Source: Ignavibacteria bacterium (GTDB taxonomy: Bacteria > Bacteroidota > Ignavibacteria > Tepidaquicellales > Tepidaquicellaceae). Taken from it: 64,000 nt of DNA. The position numbers were made by a program, and so were the translations under genes. Below, one piece after another: positions 2,121-37,406 of the stretch. The DNA lies in the NCBI GenBank assembly GCA_028714695.1, contig JAQTLX010000009.1, positions 78,508 to 142,507 of the forward strand, written 5' to 3'. Below the pieces are notes generated by a model. The model worked only from the letters and a program-made list of their open reading frames with translations, ran no database searches and was not told where the DNA came from. The first letter of the stretch is position 1; the number at the start of each line of letters is the position of its first letter.

Positions 2121-3950
2121 TTATATCGAATTGAAATACTTCTGCAAAGAAATAAAATGCGAATATTTCAGAAGGTCTTTTAAATAACTTTTATCTTTGA
2201 ACTTTTCTTTAAGCCTGTTTCCGAATACGCCCGTTTTGTCGGAGCCTTCATGTAAAACGTCGGATATAAACTTCTCTGTCCATTTCTCCGAATTAAATGT
2301 ATCGTTGCCAGACGCTCTTTTATAAGCGGCGGTCTTCTTAACGCCTTTATAAATGCTTATGAAATTAAACGGAAACGGTTTTAGTAAATCATCCGGCTTG
2401 TAACCTCTGTCCAGATTGATTTTCCCAAGTTCGGGTTTGAATCTTTTGTAAATATGCGCGTAAAGCAATTGTCCTTTCCTTCTCTTGAATTTACTCTTGC
2501 CGAGAAAACCGTTATACATACCCGCGAAAGGTGTCTTATACATAAGTTCAACGAAATCATCATCGAAGAACGGAAATCTCGTTGTCACATAAACGCGTTC
2601 AATCTGTATTTCCTGCGAAAAATATTTTCTGACGCCTTCCTGAATTATGAAAAAGAAAAATCGCAATACTTTGCCGCGCTCTTTGTATTTCTCGAAATAT
2701 CCTCCGAGAAGTTCGCGTTTAATTTCTTCCATGCCGTCATCGATTATCTTCGGGTCAAGATAATTTTTCTTCTTTATGTCTTCGAATATTCCATCGAGAG
2801 TTTCCGCGGGAGAATCGCTTAAAAATAATTTCTCCGAATAGTCATTCACCATTATCCCTGCGTTATGCAAAGGTCTCATAACCTCGCTGCCGAATAACCC
2901 TGTCATTATGGTCTTTGAAAAAGAGTTCAGTTTTTTGTATGCATAAGGATAATTCGAACGCAGTATCGGTGCGGAGGCATTGGAATGCTCTATTGCTTCA
3001 AGCGCGCAGCCGTCATGCTCTTTCTCATATTCTTCGTCCAGTATTACCGGAGAAAAATTAATTTTCAGTTTGCCGCATATTTCTTTCGGTATCTCGACTT
3101 GCCTGCTTCCGGGCATTCCGTATGAATAGCAGAGAAAATCCTCTTTCTTTTTATCAAGCATTGCAACATTAGCCCTGCCGTCAAATCCGCCGGTTAATGC
3201 AACAAGTATTTTATCCGTATCGAAACTGTAAAGGTTTGTATTCTCATGCAATTGCCTGCCGAGCATTTCAAGTGACTCTTTTTTGGAAAATAATTTATCG
3301 TTGTATAATTTCTCAACGTTCCAGTACCGGTTTTCCGATTTTCCTGCGCTTGAAAACTCATAAATGGTGCCGTTGTCAATTCTGGAAATATCTTTGTAGT
3401 AAGTTTTTGTTCCTAACGTGAAATCAAAAATTAACTGTTCCGTTAAAGCGGTGTGGTTCAATTCCTTCGATACCTGCCCTGATTCAAGTATCATTCTGAC
3501 CGATGATGAAATAACTAATACACCTTCTTTAAAGGAATAATATAATGGGAGAACGTTAAGTCTGTCGCTGATTACTTTAATTGTGTTTTTGTTTTCATCG
3601 TATATTGTAATGACAAACGAACCTTTTATATTATCGGTAAATTTATCGCCTGAATTTAAATGCAGTCCGTAAATCATTTCCGCGTTGATTATTTTCGGAG
3701 ACTCCCCCGTTAATTTTTTATACCGGTTATTGGTGTATACCGTGCCGAATAAAAATATATTTACACCGTCTTTCGCAAAATAATTCTTTCCAGTTTTTTC
3801 CCTTTCCAGATAAACAGCATACGAATTCTTAAATTCTTTTTCATATTCAACCGATGTTAAATTCTTATAATACGGATTATTAAGAAATGAATACTTTCTG
3901 TTCCCGCCTGAGTTTTTCCCGAAATAAACTATTTGAAAATAATCGAACAT
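2121..3950 (-). CDS. Asparagine-synthetase-like protein without an N-terminal Cys
   Basis: This 609-residue protein has the AsnB layout: an Ntn-amidotransferase-like N-terminal half and a C-terminal ATP-pyrophosphatase half. The PP-loop is ALTGGFDGR (near residue 250), where AsnB has SGGLDS. The protein begins MFDYF, so the Cys2 nucleophile needed to release ammonia from glutamine is absent; it may use free ammonia or another amine. Relatives of this family build amides or beta-lactams in secondary metabolism. It is the last gene of the operon and starts 2 nt after the ATP-grasp stop. Substrate unknown. It may act on a small molecule made with its ATP-grasp and SDR neighbours. Confidence 0.8.
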   Translation of the reverse strand: MFDYFQIVYFGKNSGGNRKYSFLNNPYYKNLTSVEYEKEFKNSYAVYLEREKTGKNYFAKDGVNIFLFGTVYTNNRYKKLTGESPKIINAEMIYGLHLNSGDKFTDNIKGSFVITIYDENKNTIKVISDRLNVLPLYYSFKEGVLVISSSVRMILESGQVSKELNHTALTEQLIFDFTLGTKTYYKDISRIDNGTIYEFSSAGKSENRYWNVEKLYNDKLFSKKESLEMLGRQLHENTNLYSFDTDKILVALTGGFDGRANVAMLDKKKEDFLCYSYGMPGSRQVEIPKEICGKLKINFSPVILDEEYEKEHDGCALEAIEHSNASAPILRSNYPYAYKKLNSFSKTIMTGLFGSEVMRPLHNAGIMVNDYSEKLFLSDSPAETLDGIFEDIKKKNYLDPKIIDDGMEEIKRELLGGYFEKYKERGKVLRFFFFIIQEGVRKYFSQEIQIERVYVTTRFPFFDDDFVELMYKTPFAGMYNGFLGKSKFKRRKGQLLYAHIYKRFKPELGKINLDRGYKPDDLLKPFPFNFISIYKGVKKTAAYKRASGNDTFNSEKWTEKFISDVLHEGSDKTGVFGNRLKEKFKDKSYLKDLLKYSHFISLQKYFNSI

Positions 3951-3952
3951 TA

Positions 3953-5155
3953 TTAGTTTTTGTTTTTTTTGAACAGCCTTCTGAATATTCCTTTGAAAAG
4001 ATTTTTAATTAAATGAAAAGATAATCCGATATCATTCCATCTCATATCTCCTACATATATCGGAAAATCGAAATACGAAAGCAAAATACCGCTCGGCGGC
4101 AAAATTCCTTTTGAAACGTATTCCGCGGAACTCCTGATATCCCTGTGTATAGATATCCACCTGATATTAATATTTCTGTTTACTACAGGTTCAAGCGTTT
4201 CTCCGAGCAATTCTTTGTAACTCATCATCGCGATATCTATTCCGAATTTTGTTCCGACTTCATCCCATAAACCGAACCTCGGATTGACTTCTATAAGTTT
4301 GTACTGATTATCCCGTAAATCCTTTTTCACCTCAATCCCCGAAGCCCCCCGGAATTTCAGGTTCTTCAGCCATTTGACCGACATTTCCTCAAGTTCTTTG
4401 TTGTAAACCAGATTTACGTATGACGCGCTTCCGAAATGAACAGGCGCGATTCTTTCCTTTATTCCCGTAAACGAACCGATGCAGTTCTGATTCCTGTCCA
4501 TGTAAGAAACAAAATAATGCAGGTTGCTGTCTTCGCCCTGAATTATTTCCTGAACAATTACCCTGTCGTCGTATTTTCGAATCACATCATACTTTTCAAG
4601 GATTTCATCAGCGCTGTTTACTATAATAACTTTTTCTCCGCCGCAATATTCTTCAAGAAAACCCGACCGCCATGATTCGGGAAATTCCGGTTTTAATATG
4701 CACGGAAACTCAGCATCTTTAATAAAAATATGAAGGTCCTCAACATCGCTCACGAAACAAGTCTTCGGAGCGGGGAATCCGAATTTCACGGCAAGTTCGT
4801 ATGTATATCTCTTGCTCGTAAGTTTCCTCAAAAGCCCGCCTTCGGGTACAGTGAAATAAAAACTCTCCGAAAGTTCATCCGCATAATCATTAAGAGGCAG
4901 AACGAATTTATCGCTTGAAGGTATAAGCACAGGCTTTACGTCGAAATCTTTCCTCATCTTCATCATATAATCAAAGAAACCCTTCCCGTCAATTTCGGGA
5001 TCGGGGCAGATGCTTTTAATTCCGAACCTCGACCTGAAGCCAAGTTCCGACGGATTGGAATCAAGACCGTATGCTTTAATTCCGAATTTCGGAAAATGCC
5101 TCAACAGGAAAATTCCCGGAGTCGATAAACCAAGCGATATTACCGGATTTTTCAT
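3953..5155 (-). CDS. ATP-grasp carboxylate-amine ligase family protein
   Basis: This 400-residue protein has a preATP-grasp Rossmann region (ISLGLSTPGIFLLRHFPKFG) and an ATP-grasp core with FPCILKPEFPESW, VIVQEIIQGEDS and the Mg-binding IEVNPRFGLWD. The family joins a carboxylate to an amine or thiol through an acyl phosphate. Its start overlaps the SDR stop by 4 nt (ATGA), showing translational coupling. A ligase of this kind beside an asparagine-synthetase-like enzyme suggests a modified amino acid or dipeptide-like product, but no substrate can be read from the sequence. Confidence 0.82.
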   Translation of the reverse strand: MKNPVISLGLSTPGIFLLRHFPKFGIKAYGLDSNPSELGFRSRFGIKSICPDPEIDGKGFFDYMMKMRKDFDVKPVLIPSSDKFVLPLNDYADELSESFYFTVPEGGLLRKLTSKRYTYELAVKFGFPAPKTCFVSDVEDLHIFIKDAEFPCILKPEFPESWRSGFLEEYCGGEKVIIVNSADEILEKYDVIRKYDDRVIVQEIIQGEDSNLHYFVSYMDRNQNCIGSFTGIKERIAPVHFGSASYVNLVYNKELEEMSVKWLKNLKFRGASGIEVKKDLRDNQYKLIEVNPRFGLWDEVGTKFGIDIAMMSYKELLGETLEPVVNRNINIRWISIHRDIRSSAEYVSKGILPPSGILLSYFDFPIYVGDMRWNDIGLSFHLIKNLFKGIFRRLFKKNKN

Positions 5156-5913
5156 TTTAACCTGAATTGGAATAAATAATCTAAAAATTCTATTTGTTTA
5201 AGAACCGAATACTTAATCAGGGTTTTTAATTTGAACATCGGAAAATTTTTACCCGTGATAAACTTTTTGCTGAAAACGATATAATCGATTAACTTAATTA
5301 CTTTTTCCGACTGAAGTAATTTAGTGTGATTGATTTCCGGACGGGTTGTTCTGTAATCGCCAGTTGAAAATGTCGGCGGACTTATGACGTTAACCGAAAT
5401 TTTCTTGTCCTTTAAATACTTCGCAAGACTTAATGAGTATGAAATGAATCCGGCTTTTGAAGTGCAGTATGACGTTCCGCCTTCGTAACTTACCATTCCG
5501 GCGTTTGACGACATATTAATAATTTTACCTCCGCCGTTTTTTATTAAATGCGGAATAACTTTATTGCAAAGAATAATCTGCGATGTCAGATTTGTGTCTA
5601 TTGACTCTCTGTATTCTTCCGCGGTTATTTCATCCGGCAATTTGAACAATTTGTAAGCGGCGTTATTAATTAATACGTCAATGCTTCCCATGAATTTAAT
5701 CGCTTCTTCTATCGCTGCGCTTGCGTCCGAATCTATGTTTATTGAACCCGTATAATATTTGAAATTCTTCGAATCGATTAGTTTTTTATTTTCATTCTTT
5801 TGATTATCGAGTGCGCTTCTCGAAAAACCAAAAACTTTATGCCCGAGTCCCGTGTAATGCAGTGCAAGTTCTTTGCCAAGTCCTCTCGAAATTCCGGTAA
5901 TGAATATATTCAT
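5152..5913 (-). CDS. Short-chain dehydrogenase/reductase
   Basis: A classical 253-residue SDR. The dinucleotide-binding motif TGISRGLG lies at the N-terminus, followed by INNAA, the catalytic serine region NMSSNAG and the active-site YCTSK. It should be a soluble NAD(P)-dependent oxidoreductase. It overlaps both neighbours by 4 nt (SGNH upstream, ATP-grasp downstream), so it belongs to the acyltransferase operon. Substrate unknown. Confidence 0.88.
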   Translation of the reverse strand: MNIFITGISRGLGKELALHYTGLGHKVFGFSRSALDNQKNENKKLIDSKNFKYYTGSINIDSDASAAIEEAIKFMGSIDVLINNAAYKLFKLPDEITAEEYRESIDTNLTSQIILCNKVIPHLIKNGGGKIINMSSNAGMVSYEGGTSYCTSKAGFISYSLSLAKYLKDKKISVNVISPPTFSTGDYRTTRPEINHTKLLQSEKVIKLIDYIVFSKKFITGKNFPMFKLKTLIKYSVLKQIEFLDYLFQFRLK

Positions 5914-6857
5914 TTCTTTGTATTGTAATATTTTTGAAAAGAAGCGAATAAAAAATTTCCTAAAGCAATATTACCCTTTTCGTTCAAATGCCAGTCGCCG
6001 CTCATCTGATTTTCGGGTATCATTATGTTCGAATATTCAAAGTTAACATTATTTTTTTTACAAAACGCGTCTATTCTGTTGTTCAATGTATCGTTTCTCA
6101 TAATTGAAACGCATAAGAATTTGTCCCCGCATCTTTTCCCGAACTGCCCGAGGCATACATTAAGGTCGGTAAGGTCGGCATTGACCGCGTATACGCTATC
6201 TTCAACGGGTTTAACTGTCTGCTCTTCGCCTTCCTGAACCAGAATTGAAACTAACCGTATGAAAGAAAAATTATTTCTGAAAAAAAGATTTATATTTGAT
6301 TTAAAAGAATTATCGACGGAAAAGGAATTTCTGTTTAACTCAAATGGATTATCCGCCAGTTTGTATGAAGCGGCTTTGTATCCGTTTATAACCAGAATTT
6401 CGCACTCGGGCTTGTAAGCGTTTTCATAATAACACATTCTTCTGTAGGAATCATACGGGTCAAATCCCGCATAACCCAAATTCAATACATTGTAATGCCT
6501 GTCTGTATTTTTTAATTGATTCTGAAAAACGGTTGTTGACATTGCTTCGGGCTTTAAAAACTGATTCTCTATGAAAGAAGAGCCCATAACGTATACATAT
6601 TTGGGCGCATCAGCCGTATCAATATCGGCGCCCGGAAGCCCGATGTTGTTTCTTCTGTATATCTCGAACTTTCCTCTGGAATTCCAGTACTCCGAATGAG
6701 GCTTGTAAATGTTCTGATGTCCGGGCGAACTTCTCATTCCTTTCATTTTGTATAATACACCGTACTTCGGAAAACCAAGAATGTTTCCTATAAGAAGTTC
6801 GGCGGCAATTAAGGAACAAATTAAAGCCGTCAATATTAGCAAAGGTTTTTTAATCAA
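5910..6857 (-). CDS. Membrane-anchored SGNH/DltD-like acyltransferase or esterase
   Basis: A 315-residue protein with one N-terminal membrane segment (about residues 3-24) and an extracytoplasmic domain. Block I is VMGSSF (Gly92-Ser93-Ser94), as in DltD proteins that carry GSS instead of GDS. The catalytic dyad DWH is at residues 288-290 in SGDWHLNEKGN. Such proteins pair with MBOAT channels (DltB/DltD, AlgI/AlgX, PatA/PatB) and move the acyl group to the final extracellular acceptor. The start codon is TTG; the ATG a few bases upstream is in another frame and hits a stop at once. It lies 11 nt after the microprotein. Confidence 0.78.
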   Translation of the reverse strand: MIKKPLLILTALICSLIAAELLIGNILGFPKYGVLYKMKGMRSSPGHQNIYKPHSEYWNSRGKFEIYRRNNIGLPGADIDTADAPKYVYVMGSSFIENQFLKPEAMSTTVFQNQLKNTDRHYNVLNLGYAGFDPYDSYRRMCYYENAYKPECEILVINGYKAASYKLADNPFELNRNSFSVDNSFKSNINLFFRNNFSFIRLVSILVQEGEEQTVKPVEDSVYAVNADLTDLNVCLGQFGKRCGDKFLCVSIMRNDTLNNRIDAFCKKNNVNFEYSNIMIPENQMSGDWHLNEKGNIALGNFLFASFQKYYNTKK

Positions 6858-6868
6858 TCCGCATAATT

Positions 6869-7000
6869 TTAAAAATCACCGTATATAAACGGCCTGCTTA
6901 GTTTCGCGATTAATTTGAAAAACGAAAGCGATGCGAGCGAAAGCGCAAGCATCAGAAATAAAACGAAATATTTTAAAAATATTTTGTACAAACCCTTCAT
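6869..7000 (-). CDS. DltX-like 43-aa membrane microprotein ending FIYGDF
   Basis: ATG at 6998-7000 opens a 43-codon frame, two bases after the MBOAT stop (TAA-TC-ATG). The product is a short basic N-terminus (MKGLYKIFLKY), one hydrophobic helix (about residues 11-31) and the C-terminus KLSRPFIYGDF. DltX proteins end in a closely similar FIYxxF motif, whose Tyr has been shown in Gram-positive Dlt systems to carry the acyl group between DltB and DltD. Many AlgI-like MBOATs carry a similar FIY-x-x-F tail fused at their C-terminus. A TAA lies in the same frame just upstream of the ATG. One extra A in the T6A3 tract at the end of the MBOAT gene would fuse the two frames, so a broken or frameshifted MBOAT tail remains possible. 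Confidence 0.75.
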   Translation of the reverse strand: MKGLYKIFLKYFVLFLMLALSLASLSFFKLIAKLSRPFIYGDF

Positions 7001-7002
7001 GA

Positions 7003-8151
7003 TTATTTAAAAAATATCCAGCACATTGTAACGTATAAAAATGTAAATACAATGCTTGCGGCATTGAACCATTTTGTCTTTGAAAGCCGCGCAAGCGCAG
7101 GCTGCTTTCTTTTTATACGCACCCACACCTGATAAGCGAAAAGCCCGAACCCGTGGCATAAGCCCCATAACAGAAAATGCAGTGCAGGTCCGTGCCACAG
7201 TCCGCATATACCCATCGCAATCATAGGAACAAAAAATATCTGCCAAGCCTTGTTTCCAAACATCGCGCTCAGCGGGAAAAATAAGTAATCCCTTATCCAG
7301 TCGGAAAGAGATATGTGCCAACTTCTCCAGAACTGACTTATGTTCGGCTTGAAATACGGATAATCGAAATTTTCCATTATCTTAAATCCGTAAACGCGGG
7401 AAGCCCCTATTGCAATATCGCTGTATGCCGAAAAGTCCATATATATCTGAACGGAATAACCCAATAGCGCGGCGCCCCTTATCCAGATTGAATAATCTCC
7501 CGGATTAGCCCATACGGGAGCGATTAAAAATCCGAGCCAGTCGGCAATAACAAACTTTTTAAAAAGCCCGTAAACAATTCTTGTAAACGCTTCTTCAAGG
7601 AAAGAAAAAGAAAATTTATTCTCCCTCTCCGCTTCAACTTTGAATCGTGAAAATCTCTCAATCGGTCCGGCAACATAAATCGTGAAAAGTGAACTGTATA
7701 AAACGAAATCAATAAGTTTACCTTTGACGTTAATTTTCCAGTATATGTCAGTAAGATAACTGATGTGTTTGAAAACAATGTACGATATTCCAAGCGGCAA
7801 AAGCAGAAATTCAATCTTGAAAACAGGAAGCGCGGAAATAAACTTATTCATATGCGCAATTATCCCGCCGAAAAATCCCAGATACTTAAACGCCGCCAGA
7901 ATCAAAACAAGCCCGATTACTCCTGTTCTGTGGAAAACTGAACGGCCGTTATATTTTTCAATCAGGTATGCAAATAAATACGAATATGCAGTCAGGATAA
8001 TTACAACCAGAGCGGAACTCTTGTCGAAGTAATATATAAACAATAAACTTACTGCCGAAAGAAAATAATTTCGAATAATCTGTTTGGGAATTATCCAGTA
8101 AATAACGGCAGTCGCAGCCAGCAAGGCATAATATTGTATTCCTACAATCAA
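7003..8151 (-). CDS. MBOAT-family O-acyltransferase (AlgI/DltB type)
   Basis: A polytopic protein of 382 residues with MBOAT signatures: FWRSWHISLSDWIRDYLFFP and the invariant-histidine segment GLWHGPALHFLLWG. It should pass acyl groups across the inner membrane for transfer to a surface glycan or similar acceptor. It ends at TMCWIFFK, shorter than AlgI (about 480-520) and close to DltB length. The microprotein with the FIYxxF tail follows immediately. The start is TTG with AGGA 7 nt upstream. It is the first gene of the six-gene operon and divergent from 8325. No acyl-carrier or adenylation gene is present in the window. Confidence 0.87.
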   Translation of the reverse strand: MIVGIQYYALLAATAVIYWIIPKQIIRNYFLSAVSLLFIYYFDKSSALVVIILTAYSYLFAYLIEKYNGRSVFHRTGVIGLVLILAAFKYLGFFGGIIAHMNKFISALPVFKIEFLLLPLGISYIVFKHISYLTDIYWKINVKGKLIDFVLYSSLFTIYVAGPIERFSRFKVEAERENKFSFSFLEEAFTRIVYGLFKKFVIADWLGFLIAPVWANPGDYSIWIRGAALLGYSVQIYMDFSAYSDIAIGASRVYGFKIMENFDYPYFKPNISQFWRSWHISLSDWIRDYLFFPLSAMFGNKAWQIFFVPMIAMGICGLWHGPALHFLLWGLCHGFGLFAYQVWVRIKRKQPALARLSKTKWFNAASIVFTFLYVTMCWIFFK

Positions 8152-13607: not shown

Positions 13608-16085
13608 ATGGATACCTTTAAAAAAGAAATCACGTCTGTTCCCTCTACTGAAAAAGTTGAACTGATGAGGTCGAGATATTTGAACGAACCTCTTTATATA
13701 GATTCGGAATATATTAAATATTACACCGAAGCGCATGCAAAGACCGACGGCCGCAATCCGCTCGAACGCCGCGCGGAATGCCATTCCTATGCCATCGAAA
13801 GGCTTACGCCCGTTATTCGCGACGGCGAACTTTTTGCCGGAAGCAAAACACGTTACGTAAGAGGCGCGATTCCATATTGCAATTATGCTTCGCGGTATAT
13901 TCTACGCGAATTCAAGAACGAAGAAGCCGAAGCGCAGGACGCGTTCACCGATATCGGCAAAGGCGGCGGGATTGCAAAGTCGAAAGAGATTGCCGAAAAG
14001 GGTGACTACGAATTTTTCTGCAGGAAGTATCTCATATCAAAAGAAGATAAACATATATTAAAAGAATCCGCCGAATATTTTCTCGGAAAGAGCATGCAGG
14101 ATGTCGGAGACGCGCTCTGGAAAAGTGTTTTTGAACAGGCGGATTATATCGACAAGGGCTGGCAGGCGGGACTCTATACCGCGCCGCATGACCCCGCTCC
14201 GGAAGGAAGATATGTACTTGATTTTGAAACAGCCCTTAATCAGGGTCTGAATGGAATTATTGAAAGACTTAGAAATAAAATCAAAGATGCAGAAGTAACC
14301 GACTATCAGTCGGCGGAAAAAATTTATTTCTGGCGCGCGGGTATCAGAACTCTTGAAGCGACAATCAAATGGGCTGAAAACTACGGCAATAAAGCCGCTG
14401 AACTCGCAGCAGCGGAAAAAAATCCTAAGCGAAAAAAAGAACTCGAAGAAATAGCCGAACGCTGCCATTACGTTCCCGCAAACAAACCGCGTAATTTCAA
14501 AGACGCGATGCAGGCTTTCTGGTTTGTTTATCTCGCCGGACACATTGAAGGCGCGCAACTCGGATATTCGCCGGGAAGATTCGACAGGTATATGTATCCG
14601 TTCTACAAAATGGATAAAGACGCGGGAACAATCAAAGATTCCGAAGTGCTCGAACTTCTCGAAATGCTCCGCGTTAAAATGACTGAAATAGAATACGTCG
14701 CTTCGTTCTCCTGGGCGGGACTCGGCTCGGGAAATCTTTTCCAGAACATGATTTTGGGCGGGCTTGATGAAAAAGGACACAGAGGCGACAACGAACTTTC
14801 TGTTCTGGTGCTGCAGTCTGCAATCAACTGCCAGACCACACAACCGACGCTTTCAATCTGGTACGATGATTCACTCAGCGAAGAATTTCTTCTGAAAGCA
14901 GCGGACTGCGTAAAAACAGGATGCGGTTTTCCCGCATGGTTCAATCTTAAAGTCTTTATTCAGCATGAACTTCAAAAATCCGGACTGCCAGTTTCAACAA
15001 TCCGCAAATACGCCGCGATGGGCGGATGCACGGAACCGACGATGGAAGGAATGAGTTACGGAATCGTGCAGGCGGGATTTATAAATCACGGAAAACTTTT
15101 TGAACTGGCAATGAACGGCGGCAAAGACCCGCGCACAGGTCTGGTTTTCGATGAAACGAAAATTCCGGAAACTTACGAAGAACTCTATGACGCGTATCTG
15201 ATTCACATGAGAAACTCAATCCGAAACTGGCAGAGATACTGGAACTTCGTTATGTCGGCGCACAGGCAAACGTGCAATCTTATATTTTCTTCCATGCTCG
15301 TGAAAGACTGCATAGAAAGAGGACTTTCTCTCGATGACGGCGGCGCGATATGCAACGGAACTCCGACCACGTTGAGCAGCGGAATGGTAAATGTTGTAAA
15401 TTCAATGGCAGTCGTGAAAAAACTTCTCGGCGCTGATACTTCAATGGACGAAATACGCGAGGCTATAAATAAAGACTGGGAAGGATTCGATGTCCTCAGA
15501 AACAAAGCGCTCGACGCGCCGAAGTGGGGAAACAACGATGACTTTGCTGACGACATATACGAAGATTTGTTTGACACATACTGCACTTATGTGTCCGAAC
15601 AGAAAAATTATCTCGGTGAGCCTTACGACCCGTCAATGCTGGCAATCAGCACGCATGCGCCATTCGGAAAAGTATGCGGCGCGACTCCCGACGGTAGGCA
15701 TTCGGGCGAAACACTCTGCGACGGCGTTACGTCGCCTTTCCCGGGAACCGACACTAACGGACCGCTTGCGGTTCTGCTCTCGGCAGGGAAAATTGACCAC
15801 TCGAAAATACGCGGCGGACTTCATAATATGAAATTCCATCCTTCCGCGCTTAAAGGAATTCAGGGCTCGAAAAAACTTCTGAGCCTGATAAAAACTTATT
15901 TCGAAACGCTTGGATTCCAGATACAGTTCAACGTTGTTGACAGCGAAATGCTTAAAGAAGCGCAGATGCATCCCGAAAATTACAGGGACCTTATTGTCCG
16001 CGTCGCGGGATTCAGCGCCTTCTTCGTAGAACTCGGAAAATCCATGCAGGACGAAATCATCAGGAGGACGGAACATTACATCTGA
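13608..16085 (+). CDS. Glycyl radical enzyme, dehydratase/lyase-like
   Basis: An 825-residue PFL-like barrel enzyme. The active-site loop is AAMGGCTEP with Cys474 and Glu476; C-x-E is the pattern of eliminating glycyl radical enzymes (diol dehydratases, choline lyase) and not the CC pair of pyruvate formate-lyase. The radical site is IVRVAGFSAFFVELG with Gly801, 24 residues from the C-terminus. The enzyme must be oxygen-sensitive and cytosolic, implying an at least facultatively anaerobic life. Its activase overlaps the 3' end. No microcompartment or transporter gene is nearby, so the substrate cannot be assigned. Confidence 0.93.
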   Translation: MDTFKKEITSVPSTEKVELMRSRYLNEPLYIDSEYIKYYTEAHAKTDGRNPLERRAECHSYAIERLTPVIRDGELFAGSKTRYVRGAIPYCNYASRYILREFKNEEAEAQDAFTDIGKGGGIAKSKEIAEKGDYEFFCRKYLISKEDKHILKESAEYFLGKSMQDVGDALWKSVFEQADYIDKGWQAGLYTAPHDPAPEGRYVLDFETALNQGLNGIIERLRNKIKDAEVTDYQSAEKIYFWRAGIRTLEATIKWAENYGNKAAELAAAEKNPKRKKELEEIAERCHYVPANKPRNFKDAMQAFWFVYLAGHIEGAQLGYSPGRFDRYMYPFYKMDKDAGTIKDSEVLELLEMLRVKMTEIEYVASFSWAGLGSGNLFQNMILGGLDEKGHRGDNELSVLVLQSAINCQTTQPTLSIWYDDSLSEEFLLKAADCVKTGCGFPAWFNLKVFIQHELQKSGLPVSTIRKYAAMGGCTEPTMEGMSYGIVQAGFINHGKLFELAMNGGKDPRTGLVFDETKIPETYEELYDAYLIHMRNSIRNWQRYWNFVMSAHRQTCNLIFSSMLVKDCIERGLSLDDGGAICNGTPTTLSSGMVNVVNSMAVVKKLLGADTSMDEIREAINKDWEGFDVLRNKALDAPKWGNNDDFADDIYEDLFDTYCTYVSEQKNYLGEPYDPSMLAISTHAPFGKVCGATPDGRHSGETLCDGVTSPFPGTDTNGPLAVLLSAGKIDHSKIRGGLHNMKFHPSALKGIQGSKKLLSLIKTYFETLGFQIQFNVVDSEMLKEAQMHPENYRDLIVRVAGFSAFFVELGKSMQDEIIRRTEHYI

Positions 16086-17001
16086 TAAAGCATTAATATT
16101 CGACATACAGGATTTATCCGTTCAGGATGGTCCGGGAATAAGGACAACGGTATTCATGAAGGGCTGCCCGCTGAAATGCAGGTGGTGCTCGAATCCCGAA
16201 GGACAGAATCTTCACCCCGAATTAATGCACATAAAAACAATCTGCAAAAAACATTATAAATGTATTTCAGCGTGTCCTTACAATGCGGCAACTGCTGATG
16301 CATCAAACGAAAATTCATTTCCCGTTTTTGAATACGCTAAGTGCCGCGAATGCGAAACCCGCGAATGTATCATTTCCTGTCCCGAACGTGCGTTAAGATT
16401 TACGGGAAAATATATTTCATCATCAGACTTGATAAAACGAGTTAAAGCAAACATTCCTTTTTACAGAAACTCGGGCGGCGGAGTTACGTTCTCAGGCGGC
16501 GAGCCTTTTCTTCAAATTGATTTCATAAAAGAGTTTATAAAAGACATCGCGCCGCTGGGAATAACCGTTGGTGTTGAAACTTGCGGAATGTTTGACATGA
16601 AAAAGGTGCGTGAAATCGCAGACAGCCTCGATTTTATTTACTACGACCTTAAATGCATGGACAGCGATATTCACAAAAAAGCAACCGGAAGTCCGAACGA
16701 AACAATATTGAACAACCTTAAAGAACTTGCGGCAATAAACCCGGAGATTATTATTATATCCGTTCCTGTTGTGCCGGACGTGAACGACAGCGATGCTCAG
16801 ATAAAAAACATAGCCGCATTCTGCAAAGAAAATAAAATCAAAGAACTCCGCCTGCTTCCTTATCACAGTTTCGGCGAAGACAAATATTCATTCCTCGGCA
16901 GAAAATATCTTATGGAAGAAAAATTGAACATTCCTCCAGAAGATTTAAACCGCTTCATGCATATAGTCGAAGACTTCGGAATCTCATGCAAAATAGAGTG
17001 A
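16075..17001 (+). CDS. Glycyl radical enzyme activase, radical SAM, probable ATT start
   Basis: It generates the glycyl radical on the preceding enzyme with S-adenosylmethionine. The radical-SAM motif is CPLKCRWC; between it and the core lies a ferredoxin-like insert with two more Cys clusters (CKKHYKCISACPYN, CRECETRECIISCPE), as in activases of eliminating GREs. FSGGEPFLQ follows. The first ATG is at 16156, but the codons upstream encode the conserved DIQDLSVQDGPGIRTTVF. No ATG, GTG or TTG lies in that frame between the GRE end and 16156. ATT at 16075 sits 7 nt after a perfect AGGAGG (16062-16067), giving 308 residues and overlapping the GRE stop by 11 nt. Confidence 0.88.
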   Translation: MTSDKALIFDIQDLSVQDGPGIRTTVFMKGCPLKCRWCSNPEGQNLHPELMHIKTICKKHYKCISACPYNAATADASNENSFPVFEYAKCRECETRECIISCPERALRFTGKYISSSDLIKRVKANIPFYRNSGGGVTFSGGEPFLQIDFIKEFIKDIAPLGITVGVETCGMFDMKKVREIADSLDFIYYDLKCMDSDIHKKATGSPNETILNNLKELAAINPEIIIISVPVVPDVNDSDAQIKNIAAFCKENKIKELRLLPYHSFGEDKYSFLGRKYLMEEKLNIPPEDLNRFMHIVEDFGISCKIE

Positions 17002-30943: not shown

Positions 30944-33900
30944 ATGCGAATTCTGAAAAGAACGGTAAAATATTTCCTTTGGGTAATCACGGTTTTGATA
31001 ATATTGTTATTAGGGCTTTATATATTTATACAAACCGAAACGTTTAATAAATGGGCTCTTGACTTCACGCTCGATAATCTTAACAAGTCCATGTCTGAAA
31101 AAGATAATCATCTCTATGCAGAATCTATAAACGGAAATATCTTAAAGGGCATAAGAATTAATAACGGAGCCGTTACAATCCGGGGCGATACGCTTTTGTC
31201 ATTCAAATATATTGACCTCAAATATGATGTCTGGGGTTTGCTTAATCAAAAAATATATCTCGATTACGTCGTTCTGAATTCTCCTCAAATTAATTTGGTT
31301 AAAATAAAAGGAGCGGGAGATTCGCTCGTGTGGAATTTCTCAAACTTATTCACTCCTTCCGCCGATACAACTACTTCGGAATTTAAATGGAATGTTTATG
31401 TCGACAAATTCCGCATCGAAAACGGCAGCGCGAAAATATTAGATACTTTGTCATTGGTTCCGTTGTATGCTTCCGATTGGGAAACACAAAAGGAATTCAA
31501 GTTATCCGAACTCAGTTTGAAAAACATTGAAACAGAAATTAACGGCGAGTATTCCGATAAATATAAAAAACTTAATATAAGGTATCTCTCTTTCAATTCT
31601 AATACCGATTTCATACTGAAAAATTTTGCATTGCAGGCATTCATTGACGTGAAAAATAATTTTACGCAGATTACCGACCTGGAACTTATTACGGAAAGAA
31701 CATCTGTCAAAATTCCGCATTTGAAATTATCGGATTACAACCCGATGGTTTTAACCGATTTCGATTCCTTCAAAGATAAAAACATCGAGGCAAAAATCGA
31801 TATTGGAAAATTTAATTTTGCAGACTTGAGGTTCTTAATTCCGACAATTGATATGCTCGATAGTTCGGTATCGCTTAGTCTGGACGCCGACGGAAAATTC
31901 GGTGATATAAACGTTAAAAATCTAAATTTAAAACTTCCAAACTCTGTTATTGAAATTCGGGGAAATGTGAAAAATGTTAACAATCCCGACAGCCTTTATT
32001 TTGACACTTACACCGACAGTAAAATTTCTGCCGGAGATATAAAGACAATTTATAATTCAAAAACATTTCCTGACTTCAGCCGTCTTGGTATTATTAACGC
32101 GAGAATTTTTTACAAGGGCGGACTTAATGAATTTAACAGCATCTTTGAGGTTAAGTCATCCTCCGGAAATGTGAACGGAAACGTCAGCATGAATTTTGAT
32201 AAGGAATATTATGACGGAAAAATAAGCGCCGATAATCTGAATCTGGGTAGTGTTCTGAAAAACAACGCCCTTAAAAGCAACCTTACGTTTGAAGCCGATA
32301 TCAATGGAAGCGGATATTCTCCGCGCAATATGCGCACAAATGTGAATTACACTTTGAAAAAATCTTATTTTGCAGGATATGATATCCGCAGTTCCTCAGG
32401 AATAGTTGATATTAACCGTAATATAGTCGGTTTGAAAATTCAGGCGCTCTCCTCCGCGGGCAGCGCTAAGGTGAACGGTAAAATAAATATATCAAATACG
32501 AAAAATCCCGTTTATTCGCTACGGGGTACCGTGAATAATTTTGACGCTTCCCGTCTAACAAAAAACAGTGACGATAAAAGTAATATTAATTTAAAATTTG
32601 ATATTAATGGCAGCGGAATTTCTGTTGATAAACTGAATGGGAAATATAATGCCGATATAGGAAACTCTTCGTATTCGGAATATTCGATTCCCCAAACGAA
32701 CGTGAAAGCAATTATAAACGCAGATAAAGATAACAGTTCTGTAAATGTAAACTCGGAAGCATTCGAGTTTAATGCAGACGGGACCTTCAATGTCGGCTCG
32801 CTTGTAAAAGCAATTTTGTATAACATTTCCTCCGTAAGCGGTATAGTAACTAAAAAGTTAAATTCCGATACAACCATTGTATTTGAAAACACATACCCCG
32901 AATCTGACTTCGGAATAGTAAACTTAAACTATAAGTTCATAACAAAAGACACAGTAAAACTTAACAAACTTACCGAACCATTCGGCATCGTTGTTAATGG
33001 CAGCCTGTCGGGAAATATAAAAAACTCGCCCGGGTCGTTTGATTTTGTTTCAACTTCAAATATTAAGAATTTCAGTTACAAAGATACATCTATAATACTG
33101 AAAAATTTCAATTCGGATATCATATTTAAAAACAATTACAGCGGCAATAACAATCCTGACTTAATCTCATCTTTAAGCATGAATGTCTCTGCAAACGCGG
33201 ATAGAATAAGAAATAATTCGAATAGTATCGATTCGGTGATTGTGAAAATTATTATGGATAACGGCGTTGCGGAGGCAAGCGCAAAAGGAAAAATGGATTC
33301 TTCAAAGTACGCCGGAGTTTCAGGCAAATTTGATTTGAACGGAAATGCGATATCGGCAAGCATTGACAGCGTGTATGCAAGGTATAATAATTATAGTCTT
33401 AAAAACAGCAATGTATGGACGATAAATTACCTGCCTGCCGAAAATATAGAAATTAAAAAACTCGGTCTTCAAAGCGGAAATATGATATTGAATGTCGACG
33501 GCATTTATTCGTTTACAGGAAACAGCAATATTAATATAAATGCCGAAAATATGGATATCGGCGAAATATATGAAATGATATCGCCGTCGGATTCAAACAT
33601 TACGGGAGAAAGAGTCGCGTATCCCGTCAAAGGCGAATTGGCAAATTTGTCGGCTAATATTCAGGGAACGCCCGGGAATTTAAACTTAGACCTTGAAGTT
33701 AAAACCGGTCTGCTTAAATATGATTCCATCGGAATCGGAAATATTATCGGCAGCATAAAATACAAAGACGAAACATTGTTTCCCGATATTGTAATAACTA
33801 ACAACGGAAATACAGGCAGCATAAAAATTACCGGCAACTATCCGCTGGCAAATCCCTTTGAAGCACATGATACATTGCAAAACATGAACGATAAACCGGC

Positions 33901-35443
33901 GGATTTAAAACTCGTCGCCTCTAATTTTCAGATTCAATATTTTACTAAACTGATTCCGGGAGCCGGAGATTTAAGAGGACTGCTAAACGGTTCGCTGACC
34001 GCTCAGGGCACAATACAAAACCCTGATTTAAAAGGCGATTTGACGATGGTGCAGGGGAAATATTTCCTCAGCCTGATAGGAATGTACTATGACTTTAAAT
34101 TCAAAGTCAGCACGTCCGATTCGAAACTTATTATAGATAACATTAGTATTTATAATCCGGATGACGATACAAAACATATAGATTTCAGAGGAACTATCGA
34201 TTTCGGCGGTTTCAAATTAAATAATATAGATTTGTCTTCTTCGGGAGATGTGGTAATCCTCGACAAAAACAGCCGGGAAAATGCATTCGGCATCACCGGA
34301 AGTCTTCTCGGAGGTATAGGTACACCGCCTATAACGATAAAAGGTAATTTGGAAAAGTTAAATATTGCCGGGCAGTTTTTAATTAAATCCGCGACTATTA
34401 CTTCGCTTCCTGTTTCAGGTCTGGGATATAAAACACCGGATAAAAAAGTAATATACGTAAACGCAAAAGATACGGTGAATAAATTAAGAAGAAAATACGT
34501 GCAGACTTTAAATGAGTATGAAAAAATTAATCCTTTCGAAAGAGATAAATATATTTTAATGGACACAAATAGTATTTCCGTTCTTGAAATGTTAATGATT
34601 AATGTGAATGTCAAAACCGAAAAAAACATGTATGTGTCGATTGATTTCCATAATCTTACAAGGGACAGGCTCTACGGAGAAATAACCGCGGACTTAAATC
34701 TCAGAAGCAGCAGAGGGCGTTTGTTCGCCCGCGGTGAACTGAATGTTGTCGGGAATTCTTATTACAGATTTTACAGAGACTTTAAAGTTAAAGACAGTAA
34801 AATAACATTTTCCGGACCTATCGGCAGTCCCGAACTGGATATTCGGGCTGTGTATGAAAACAGGAAAACAACAGAACAGTTCGGAACAATTTCAAATAAC
34901 CCTATTCAGGTTATATTAACGGTAAAAGGTCCGCCCTCGGATCCCGAAATCTCTTTGAAACTTTATGAAAACGGAACCGAAATGCAGGGGAATGACGCGA
35001 CTGCGGATGCAATTACTTATCTTCTTTTTGGAAAATATAAAAACGAATTAAGCGCTTCGGAACAACAATCAGTGGCTACGGGAATAGGCTCTACGGTCGG
35101 GTCCCTATATGTGTCTTCATTCGTCGGACAGATAATCAGAAATATTGTGCCGTTCATAAACGATGCCGAAATTAATTATTCCGAAGGCGGTATTGAAAAT
35201 ACAAGCGGTAATGTTTCTGCAAATCTATATAATGCGGATATCACCGTGGGAAGCCGCGTTGTAAACAATTCAACTTATCTTGAATTCGATTTGGGATATG
35301 ATGTGAAAAGGATTATAAAAATTGACGTTCCGGAACCGGTTATGCTGCAGTTTTCCCGCGCCCAAATGAGCAAAAATATAATTACTGATACGGATATAAG
35401 ATACAGCACGGGAGTTAAACTTATATACACTATTAAATACTAA
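30944..35443 (+). CDS. tamB: TamB/DUF490-type inner-membrane translocation and assembly protein
   Basis: A 1499-residue protein with one N-terminal membrane helix (about residues 8-30) and a very long beta-rich periplasmic body with repeating N-I-x-G-N/D-I-patterns, typical of TamB/AsmA-like bridge proteins. The C-terminal 400 residues show the TamB domain (GDLRGLLNGSLTAQG, ARGELNVVGNSYYRFYRDF, ATADAITYLLFGKY). TamB-like proteins span the periplasm and carry lipids or assist barrel insertion with an Omp85 partner. The convergent next gene encodes that partner, the stops being 1 nt apart. Confidence 0.9.
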   Translation: MRILKRTVKYFLWVITVLIILLLGLYIFIQTETFNKWALDFTLDNLNKSMSEKDNHLYAESINGNILKGIRINNGAVTIRGDTLLSFKYIDLKYDVWGLLNQKIYLDYVVLNSPQINLVKIKGAGDSLVWNFSNLFTPSADTTTSEFKWNVYVDKFRIENGSAKILDTLSLVPLYASDWETQKEFKLSELSLKNIETEINGEYSDKYKKLNIRYLSFNSNTDFILKNFALQAFIDVKNNFTQITDLELITERTSVKIPHLKLSDYNPMVLTDFDSFKDKNIEAKIDIGKFNFADLRFLIPTIDMLDSSVSLSLDADGKFGDINVKNLNLKLPNSVIEIRGNVKNVNNPDSLYFDTYTDSKISAGDIKTIYNSKTFPDFSRLGIINARIFYKGGLNEFNSIFEVKSSSGNVNGNVSMNFDKEYYDGKISADNLNLGSVLKNNALKSNLTFEADINGSGYSPRNMRTNVNYTLKKSYFAGYDIRSSSGIVDINRNIVGLKIQALSSAGSAKVNGKINISNTKNPVYSLRGTVNNFDASRLTKNSDDKSNINLKFDINGSGISVDKLNGKYNADIGNSSYSEYSIPQTNVKAIINADKDNSSVNVNSEAFEFNADGTFNVGSLVKAILYNISSVSGIVTKKLNSDTTIVFENTYPESDFGIVNLNYKFITKDTVKLNKLTEPFGIVVNGSLSGNIKNSPGSFDFVSTSNIKNFSYKDTSIILKNFNSDIIFKNNYSGNNNPDLISSLSMNVSANADRIRNNSNSIDSVIVKIIMDNGVAEASAKGKMDSSKYAGVSGKFDLNGNAISASIDSVYARYNNYSLKNSNVWTINYLPAENIEIKKLGLQSGNMILNVDGIYSFTGNSNININAENMDIGEIYEMISPSDSNITGERVAYPVKGELANLSANIQGTPGNLNLDLEVKTGLLKYDSIGIGNIIGSIKYKDETLFPDIVITNNGNTGSIKITGNYPLANPFEAHDTLQNMNDKPADLKLVASNFQIQYFTKLIPGAGDLRGLLNGSLTAQGTIQNPDLKGDLTMVQGKYFLSLIGMYYDFKFKVSTSDSKLIIDNISIYNPDDDTKHIDFRGTIDFGGFKLNNIDLSSSGDVVILDKNSRENAFGITGSLLGGIGTPPITIKGNLEKLNIAGQFLIKSATITSLPVSGLGYKTPDKKVIYVNAKDTVNKLRRKYVQTLNEYEKINPFERDKYILMDTNSISVLEMLMINVNVKTEKNMYVSIDFHNLTRDRLYGEITADLNLRSSRGRLFARGELNVVGNSYYRFYRDFKVKDSKITFSGPIGSPELDIRAVYENRKTTEQFGTISNNPIQVILTVKGPPSDPEISLKLYENGTEMQGNDATADAITYLLFGKYKNELSASEQQSVATGIGSTVGSLYVSSFVGQIIRNIVPFINDAEINYSEGGIENTSGNVSANLYNADITVGSRVVNNSTYLEFDLGYDVKRIIKIDVPEPVMLQFSRAQMSKNIITDTDIRYSTGVKLIYTIKY

Positions 35444-35444
35444 A

Positions 35445-37406
35445 TCAGAATGCTTCTCCAATTCCAAAATTCACTACGAATTTATTCTTAAAAATCGTCT
35501 TTAAATTGTTTTGAAAAAGCCATTTCTTGCTGTCGTCTGCCGACGGGTCGAATAACTTAAAACCGAAATCGACTCTTATCGGACCGATGAAAATATTGTA
35601 CCTGATTCCCGTTCCAATGGCTATTGCAATTTGATTTAATCTGAAATCTCTGTGATTCTCCCATACATTCCCAAAATCCGCGAATAATACCGCACCGATA
35701 TTTCTTTTGAAATTATTTGAACCCGGAAATAATTTTTTCCGAAACTCTACGCTTCCCTCTATCCAGAAATTTCCGCCGAATCTTGTATCTTTCACGAATC
35801 CGTTTGAATTTGCGCTCCATCCCCTTAGGCTGTTGCTGCCGCCGCTGTAATATTTATACTGCGGCTGAAGCGGGACTACCCTGTTCCCGCTTTCTTTTTC
35901 AAAATTGTCGGCGAGAATGAATTTAGACGCTATTACATTTTCGCCTTCCAGATTCGCAAGATTAAAATAAAATCTGTTTGAGGTCGATAATTTTGCAAAC
36001 TTTGAATATACAAAAAAATTGCTCTTTACGGCGTTTAAAATAATTCCGGGGAGTAAACCGCCCTCGCCGGCAGTTATGGAATGATAATAACCGCGCGAAG
36101 GCGCTATCGCGTTGTTTGTATTGTCGTGAATAAACGTGACGCTTAAAAACGATGTGTAGAGATTTATTGTTCCGAGATTTCCGAAACTATATTTAATGCG
36201 CGCCAATTCTTCGTTTAGGTCGATGGTTGCCTTGTTGTAAAAAGTATTGTCAGAAATATAATATCTGAGAGAGGCAATATTACCGAGATAATAATTCGTG
36301 TAACCCGGATAATTGTAATAACCGAGAGAAAATTTATCGCTTAAGGATGATTTGTTGTTTATGACGTACGGCACAATCAACTGCGTGACAAGTTCTATTA
36401 AATTTACATCGATTGAATTGAACAATCCGCGAAACTCTGATGTTAAAGTTTTTCCGCCCTTAGAAAAATATTTATCGTAATAACGTATTCCGCCGCCTCC
36501 GAAAAAGTAATTGCTGATGTTGGTTCCTTCAACAAACGGCGTTATTTCGATTTTGTTTCCAAAAACAGTATTGACGTTAAAATCTACTATATTTCCGTTC
36601 GTCGATTTAACTCTTATCCTTGCTGCTTTTACAATCGGCATCTGAGACATGTTCTTTTCGCTGTCCTGCCTTTTTTTCCTGCTGTAAACTTCTCCTTCAC
36701 GGTACGTGATTCCTTTTCCGAGAAAATCTGTCGAAACGTTGTACTTGTTGTCGGTTATAACAAAAGAGGTCTTACCGAAAAAAAATACCGTGTCTGCATT
36801 GATGAAATTTAAAGTAAGGCTTACGGAAGTGTCATACTTCGTGAGCACCATTCCGGAATCTCTTTTGACTCCTGCCGATAAATATCCGTTGTTTTGAAGA
36901 AGGTCCGAAATGCCATCCGAATAATCTATCATTGCGGATTTTGAATAATAATCTTTCGGCTTCACCAATTTCATTGTGTCGATAATCTGATGCACGGAAT
37001 CAGTGACTCTGTCCAGACCGGTAAGTTTTATATCGGATATGGAGTAACGGTGATTTTCGTTTATTAAAAAATTCACTATAACCGTGCTGTCAATATTGTT
37101 GAACACGGTTTCGGATTTTATTATAACATCAAAAAACCCGTTGTCAAAATAAAAACTTGTCAGGTTTGAAACGTCCTGAAACAATACGGAGGATTTAAAA
37201 TATTTCAATCCCGAAATAACAACGGCATCCTTTAAATCACCGTCATCAAAAGATTTTTTATCAATATGTATAAAATTAACATCGTCAATTTCATAATTTT
37301 GAGTATATCCGTTATTAAAATATATCATCGAGAATAACAGCAAAATATAAATTTTATTGATATTCACTTTATTTGATTTCCGGTTGTATTTGGTGCTTTT
37401 TTTCAA
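35445..37406 (-). CDS. Omp85-family outer-membrane protein (BamA/TamA type)
   Basis: A 653-residue protein with an N-terminal signal (hydrophobic IYILLLFSMIYFNNG after a basic stretch). POTRA-like domains occupy about residues 35-260 (VIIKSETVF, YSISDIKLTGLDRV, YREGEVYSRKK). A C-terminal 16-strand barrel ends in phenylalanine (VVNFGIGEAF), as outer-membrane barrels do. Family motifs include YYSGGSNSLRGW and GPIRVDFGFKL. With the convergent tamB gene it probably forms a Tam-like envelope complex. Confidence 0.9.
   Translation of the reverse strand: MKKSTKYNRKSNKVNINKIYILLLFSMIYFNNGYTQNYEIDDVNFIHIDKKSFDDGDLKDAVVISGLKYFKSSVLFQDVSNLTSFYFDNGFFDVIIKSETVFNNIDSTVIVNFLINENHRYSISDIKLTGLDRVTDSVHQIIDTMKLVKPKDYYSKSAMIDYSDGISDLLQNNGYLSAGVKRDSGMVLTKYDTSVSLTLNFINADTVFFFGKTSFVITDNKYNVSTDFLGKGITYREGEVYSRKKRQDSEKNMSQMPIVKAARIRVKSTNGNIVDFNVNTVFGNKIEITPFVEGTNISNYFFGGGGIRYYDKYFSKGGKTLTSEFRGLFNSIDVNLIELVTQLIVPYVINNKSSLSDKFSLGYYNYPGYTNYYLGNIASLRYYISDNTFYNKATIDLNEELARIKYSFGNLGTINLYTSFLSVTFIHDNTNNAIAPSRGYYHSITAGEGGLLPGIILNAVKSNFFVYSKFAKLSTSNRFYFNLANLEGENVIASKFILADNFEKESGNRVVPLQPQYKYYSGGSNSLRGWSANSNGFVKDTRFGGNFWIEGSVEFRKKLFPGSNNFKRNIGAVLFADFGNVWENHRDFRLNQIAIAIGTGIRYNIFIGPIRVDFGFKLFDPSADDSKKWLFQNNLKTIFKNKFVVNFGIGEAF

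Follow-up and report, generated by a model that had tools for sequence, protein, structure and literature searches.

Biochemical work has established an acyl relay between an MBOAT protein and an SGNH-fold partner in two systems, DltX/DltB/DltD and PatA/PatB (PMC12148441). In the first system the tyrosine of DltX passes D-alanine from DltB to DltD, and in the second the motif is fused to PatA and the acyl group is supplied by acetyl-CoA (PMC12148441). A 2025 paper on PatA describes non-Dlt MBOAT-SGNH pathways as working without a carrier and without a DltX-like microprotein (PMC12148441).

Within the window (the whole 64 kb stretch of Ignavibacteria DNA that was analysed), a DltX-like microprotein, here called X, is encoded on the minus strand at 6869..7000. 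It is 43 amino acids long (MKGLYKIFLKYFVLFLMLALSLASLSFFKLIAKLSRPFIYGDF), has one transmembrane helix and ends in RPFIYGDF, in which Tyr40 is the proposed acyl-carrying residue. The ATG of X (6998-7000) lies two bases beyond the stop codon of an MBOAT gene (7003-7005), a further stop is found in frame two codons 5' of this ATG, and a T6A3 tract occupies 7006-7014. The coordinates and details given for this frame in the first-pass annotation, among them its own ATG two bases past the MBOAT stop and a stop upstream in the same frame, proved correct. Among open reading frames of up to 150 codons (stop to stop), X is the only one in the window with a PFxYxxF ending. In Pfam, neither X nor any other X tested, including that of a clostridial carrier/AMP-ligase locus, matched the DltX family, which leaves the sensitivity of this search unproven, and a profile built from the X alignment found no match in the PDB.

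The first-pass annotation suggested searching relatives for a conserved short reading frame, and such frames are present between the MBOAT and SGNH genes in three of them, G001, G002 and G011 (G002 and G011 are the Ignavibacteriae assemblies CAIKZJ010000292 and JACREY010000015, respectively). The proteins are 78-81% identical to X, and pN/pS values of 0.10-0.25 over 39 codons against these three genomes indicate strong purifying selection, in comparisons where synonymous differences are close to saturation. The C-terminal motif, whose conservation it proposed to check, is kept as PFxYxxF, with P37, F38, Y40 and F43 among the residues invariant across nine aligned homologues, and the N-terminal part of X varies. 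X lies in frame +2 relative to the MBOAT gene in the window, in the same frame past the stop in G001 and in frame +1 in G011. The conservation of X, the selection acting on it and these differing frame relations show that it is a real, separate and selected gene, and not a sequencing slip or a broken tail. The earlier caveat that one extra A would fuse X to the MBOAT did not hold up: besides the three frame relations, every relative shares the same MBOAT end point (W..F[KR]), and fusion of X by an extra base is therefore excluded.

The MBOAT encoded at 7003..8151 (minus strand, 382 amino acids, PF03062 E 7e-17) is short and DltB-like. It aligns over its full length to the DltB model TIGR04091 with 167.5 bits, below the cut-off of 375, and a fused MBOAT and a clostridial carrier-linked MBOAT, used for comparison, also score below this cut-off (176.6 and 166.3 bits, respectively). 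In the PDB it matches nothing but DltB (6bug/8jem, E 1.7e-32), and H279 and H320 (WHG) are invariant in nine aligned members. The C-terminal tail of PatA-type proteins, comprising an FxYxxF motif and two extra C-terminal helices, is absent, and the protein ends in W..FK. In 395 genomes from this phylum, the MBOAT matches listed outside this clade are 469-552 amino acids long, the length of fused proteins; the single exception is located where a contig ends.

A tree of 105 MBOATs groups the fused proteins in a single clade (support 88) and places the window MBOAT in a 15-row clade made up entirely of split forms (support 99). The remaining split rows comprise clostridial carrier-linked loci and a large group from Proteobacteria, Planctomycetota, Hydrogenedentota and others. 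Four changes between split and fused states are seen, and truncated or broken rows account for three of these; the tree is rooted at its midpoint and does not itself give the direction, fusion or fission. We also modelled X tethered to the MBOAT (A3), for loci in which an upstream X lies in frame, by treating the stop codon as an amino acid; a model of the MBOAT part was obtained, but the X part had pLDDT values of 34-55, which gave no structural support for, and no evidence against, the tyrosine reaching the active site. In the window's own pair, the C-terminus of the MBOAT would face the opposite side of the membrane from the N-terminus of X.

A separate one-helix reading frame ending in PFxYxxF was found in 12 of the 12 Ignavibacteria/Cloacimonadota clade loci with sequence at the relevant positions; outside this set, contig ends interrupt four loci (L038, L039, L041 and L050), and none was found in L049, which has masked stretches. 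X takes three kinds of position in these loci, between the MBOAT and SGNH genes, 3' of the SGNH gene, or upstream. Two more short MBOATs are encoded in the genome of the window, on contig C1, with further ones in relatives. Loci of the C1 type have no reading frame between MBOAT and SGNH, and have a 51-52-amino-acid frame 3' of the SGNH gene that ends in NPF[FY]Y.NF. X lies 3' of the SGNH gene in L053 and G233 too, upstream in the Cloacimonadota locus L048, and in G008 it is a 43-residue protein ending in EPFLYQNF.

These positions bear on the simplest alternative to a dedicated gene, in which X would be the last helix of a fused MBOAT, detached through a frameshift or an error in sequencing and left without function. 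The location of X directly 3' of the MBOAT stop and the end motif it shares with fused MBOATs would fit such an origin, and a true broken tail does exist in another lineage, the Spirochaetia, where a fused-type MBOAT is broken into two overlapping frames (L064:1151-2672). However, X is kept separate in three relatives in other frame relations and has low pN/pS, it comprises a single helix and 43 residues whereas fused tails have two helices and about 90-106 residues, and the window MBOAT lies outside the fused clade. Relatives with X at other operon positions, 3' of the SGNH gene or upstream, refute the frameshift reading, and we regard it as extremely improbable.

A separate X with a short MBOAT also occurs in other Gram-negative lineages. 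Among the loci collected, L078:6058-6210 encodes a 50-amino-acid protein of Pfam family DUF5989 (PF19451, E 3e-26) with one transmembrane helix and a DltX-type FxYxxF ending (APFIYTIF). An SGNH-fused-MBOAT pair is found about 1 kb away from this gene, which precedes a carbamoyltransferase gene, and the literature searched, which was covered in part, contained no mention of DUF5989.

On the other side of X, in the position of DltD or PatB, lies a gene for a membrane-anchored protein of 315 amino acids with a TTG start (5910..6857, minus strand). Its sequence gave no Pfam or NCBIfam match of note and no match in the PDB. An AlphaFold2 model built from five sequences (pLDDT 68.9, pTM 0.71) retrieved TesA first in Foldseek (E 2e-4), with DltD lower in the list, and a second aligner gave Z scores of 14.5/14.4 to SGNH esterases and TesA. 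An alignment of 14 homologues shows no variation at GxS94, H290, D133 and N283; D133 is the sole aspartate conserved in all of them, and the usual catalytic aspartate at H-3 (DxxH) is lacking throughout this set. The predicted fold, together with the GxS and His motifs, places the protein in the SGNH hydrolase superfamily.

Three further genes follow on the minus strand. A gene for an SDR-family oxidoreductase (5152..5913, PF00106 E 2e-40) overlaps the SGNH stop, and a gene for an ATP-grasp enzyme (3953..5155, PF02655/PF02786) comes after it; both are kept as the next genes in G001, G002 and G011. An asparagine-synthetase-like protein (2121..3950; TIGR01536 78 bits, below the cut-off) is encoded next, as it is in G001 and G011 and partially in G002. 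Elsewhere, the window contains a HipB/HipA-like toxin-antitoxin pair (377-2115; an HTH protein and a HipA with both Pfam domains) and, at 30944-37328, a gene for a TamB-like protein convergent with one for a TamL/BamA-family Omp85 protein. A glycyl radical enzyme and its radical SAM activase are encoded at 13608-17001; the closest family is indoleacetate decarboxylase (792 bits, cut-off 1100), and the enzyme is possibly a new arylacetate-decarboxylase-like one.

The source of the acyl group is suggested by a small carrier protein of 76 amino acids (MEEKLI...LISSGLIDSFSL...), which in a relative matches PF00550 (PP-binding protein). Searching the genome of the window with a DltC model gave a weak match directly before a C1 MBOAT; against TIGR01688 this carrier scores 20.4 bits, below the cut-off of 52.35 for DltC. 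The carrier gene lies directly 5' of the MBOAT gene in G000-C1, G001-C94, G002, G004, G008, G011, G038 and the Cloacimonadota locus L048, and near it in L049, and is absent beside the MBOAT at the window locus and at G001-C55. The first-pass annotation had the trio acting without DltC nearby, which is true of the window locus itself and fails for the sister loci, where a carrier directly precedes the MBOAT; one copy is encoded elsewhere in the genome. Each such genome has one carrier, and the genome of the window has three split MBOATs, from which use of the carrier in trans is naturally inferred.

A profile search of 59 relatives found the carrier genome-wide at E <= 2e-44 in seven (G000, G001, G002, G004, G008, G011 and G038), which are exactly those with a split MBOAT at 50% identity or more, and the best match in the other 52 was 1e-21. 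The resulting table, 7/7 against 0/52, gives p of about 3e-9, uncorrected for relatedness. When loci with 4 kb flanks were compared, a carrier was near 18 of 36 split MBOATs and near none of 10 fused ones (p 0.0036). In a distant split branch, G233/L053, the MBOAT, SGNH protein and X are present with no carrier gene beside them, and G233 has no carrier genome-wide at E 1e-6; therefore the rule linking split MBOATs to the carrier is not universal.

The same data bear on whether the relay could instead be fed by acyl-CoA, with X an unfused version of the PatA-type tail and the carrier of the relatives serving another reaction. The window locus, which lacks an adjoining carrier gene, and the G233/L053 branch, which has X and no recognisable carrier, would be accommodated by this reading, and acetyl-CoA is the donor of PatA (PMC12148441). 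It accounts poorly, however, for the presence of the carrier in every genome with this MBOAT and in none of the other 52, for the carrier gene directly 5' of the MBOAT gene in most loci, and for the difference between fused and split MBOATs in the 4 kb flanks. We consider an acyl-CoA-fed relay unlikely.

The first-pass annotation also reported no DltA near the locus, and no DltA-class ligase was found in the whole genome of the window, the best match being an acetyl-CoA-synthetase-like gene with 60 bits against a cut-off of 560. Because of this absence, D-alanine is unlikely as the acyl group in this genome, as is amino-acylation by the Dlt route. A carrier, KBL and AMP ligase on contig C19 were considered as a DltA-DltC pair and rejected, since the ligase resembles acetyl-CoA synthetase and the carrier belongs to a generic type that many relatives without split MBOATs have as well. 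In G011, a DltA-like ligase (L124:1919-3478, 302-320 bits, below cut-offs) adjoins a second carrier in a polysaccharide cluster. A glycine C-acetyltransferase (KBL) gene lies directly beside a small carrier gene in L048:2444-3963, L049:525-2017 and L126:4664-6175, and in Cloacimonadota these genes adjoin the split MBOAT; a carrier-linked KBL could be a source of acyl-carrier.

By the family cut-offs for DltB, DltC and DltA, the system described here is not Dlt, nor is it of the fused PatA type. Like Dlt, it has a separate one-helix X ending in FxYxxF, an MBOAT that matches DltB from end to end, an SGNH-fold partner and, in relatives, a small carrier linked to the MBOAT. Unlike Dlt, which is Gram-positive, its hosts are Gram-negative (Ignavibacteria and Cloacimonadota), the genome of the window yielded no ligase of the DltA class, neither the carrier nor the MBOAT reaches its equivalog cut-off (DltC and DltB, respectively), and the SGNH protein is without the DxxH aspartate. 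In addition, X is encoded between or after the other genes, one carrier per genome would serve up to three MBOATs, and several gene neighbours are of polysaccharide type. PatA/PatB and AlgI-type fused MBOATs resemble the system in their Gram-negative hosts and in the MBOAT-SGNH relay through a C-terminal FxYxxF tyrosine that is proposed for it. They differ in that the fused MBOATs form a separate clade, with the motif attached by two additional helices and acyl-CoA as the donor, whereas here the motif is on a separate gene and a carrier co-occurs. A third group of loci (L056, L057, L067, L069-L072, L076 and L088, from alphaproteobacteria, Planctomycetota, Hydrogenedentota and Beggiatoa relatives) shares the short MBOAT, separate X and carrier, but there X precedes the MBOAT, which belongs to another branch of the tree, and an AMP-forming ligase accompanies them where seen (L056, L067, L071 and L076). 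The L056 ligase is closest to the exosortase-A-associated TIGR03098.

Together, the split arm and the carrier in sister loci make it most likely that this system works like Dlt, with the acyl group moving from carrier to MBOAT to Tyr40 to Ser94 to a glycan. We think it probable that X is the detached shuttle arm of a carrier-fed MBOAT-SGNH acyltransferase, performing a Dlt-like relay on an envelope polymer. An acyl thioester would be formed on a small cytoplasmic carrier, probably the single DltC-like one encoded beside the paralogous locus, on which the window locus would draw in trans. The acyl group would then cross the pore of the short MBOAT and reach, at the periplasmic face, Tyr40 within PFIYGDF; the tail of X would swing to the SGNH-fold protein, where Ser94 would take the acyl group, and this protein would esterify a surface glycan. 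The polymer is probably a polysaccharide, because the G011 copy sits among polysaccharide genes, in a cluster that also encodes a DltA-like ligase, a nucleotide-sugar dehydrogenase and a fused MBOAT. The DltB-X-D-like trio put forward in the first-pass annotation is upheld in its parts, a separate X with an invariant tyrosine motif, a short DltB-like MBOAT and an SGNH-fold partner, and its relay chemistry is what we infer. Several observations count against this reading: a carrier gene does not adjoin the window locus, the G233/L053 branch has X without a carrier, the SGNH protein has no aspartate at H-3, the tethered model placed X at low confidence, and the genome yielded no DltA-like ligase that would load the carrier.

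X might alternatively be a structural or regulatory subunit that joins the MBOAT and SGNH proteins, its tyrosine carrying no acyl group. Function in this clade is assigned by homology, and the role of DltX itself has been called unclear or possibly regulatory (PMC11035591). Yet the P, F, Y and F of the motif are invariant while the N-terminal part varies, and in PatA it is this motif that carries the acyl group (PMC12148441), and we judge a purely structural or regulatory role to be very unlikely. Returning to the carrier-fed relay, a broader scheme can be put forward tentatively, with nearly even chances in our estimation. The split form would be carrier-fed, with a detached tyrosine microprotein, and present in many Gram-negative and Gram-positive lineages, largely unannotated, whereas the fused form would be CoA-fed and have arisen once; the Ignavibacteria carrier would feed several machines in trans.

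For several Gram-negative groups, the loci described here contradict the statement that non-Dlt MBOAT-SGNH pathways have neither a carrier nor a DltX-like microprotein (PMC12148441). With the catalytic tyrosine placed on a gene of 43 codons, such a component is easily missed by gene finders. The loci suggest a simple rule for the family, in which the architecture of the arm, split or fused, is tied to the acyl donor.
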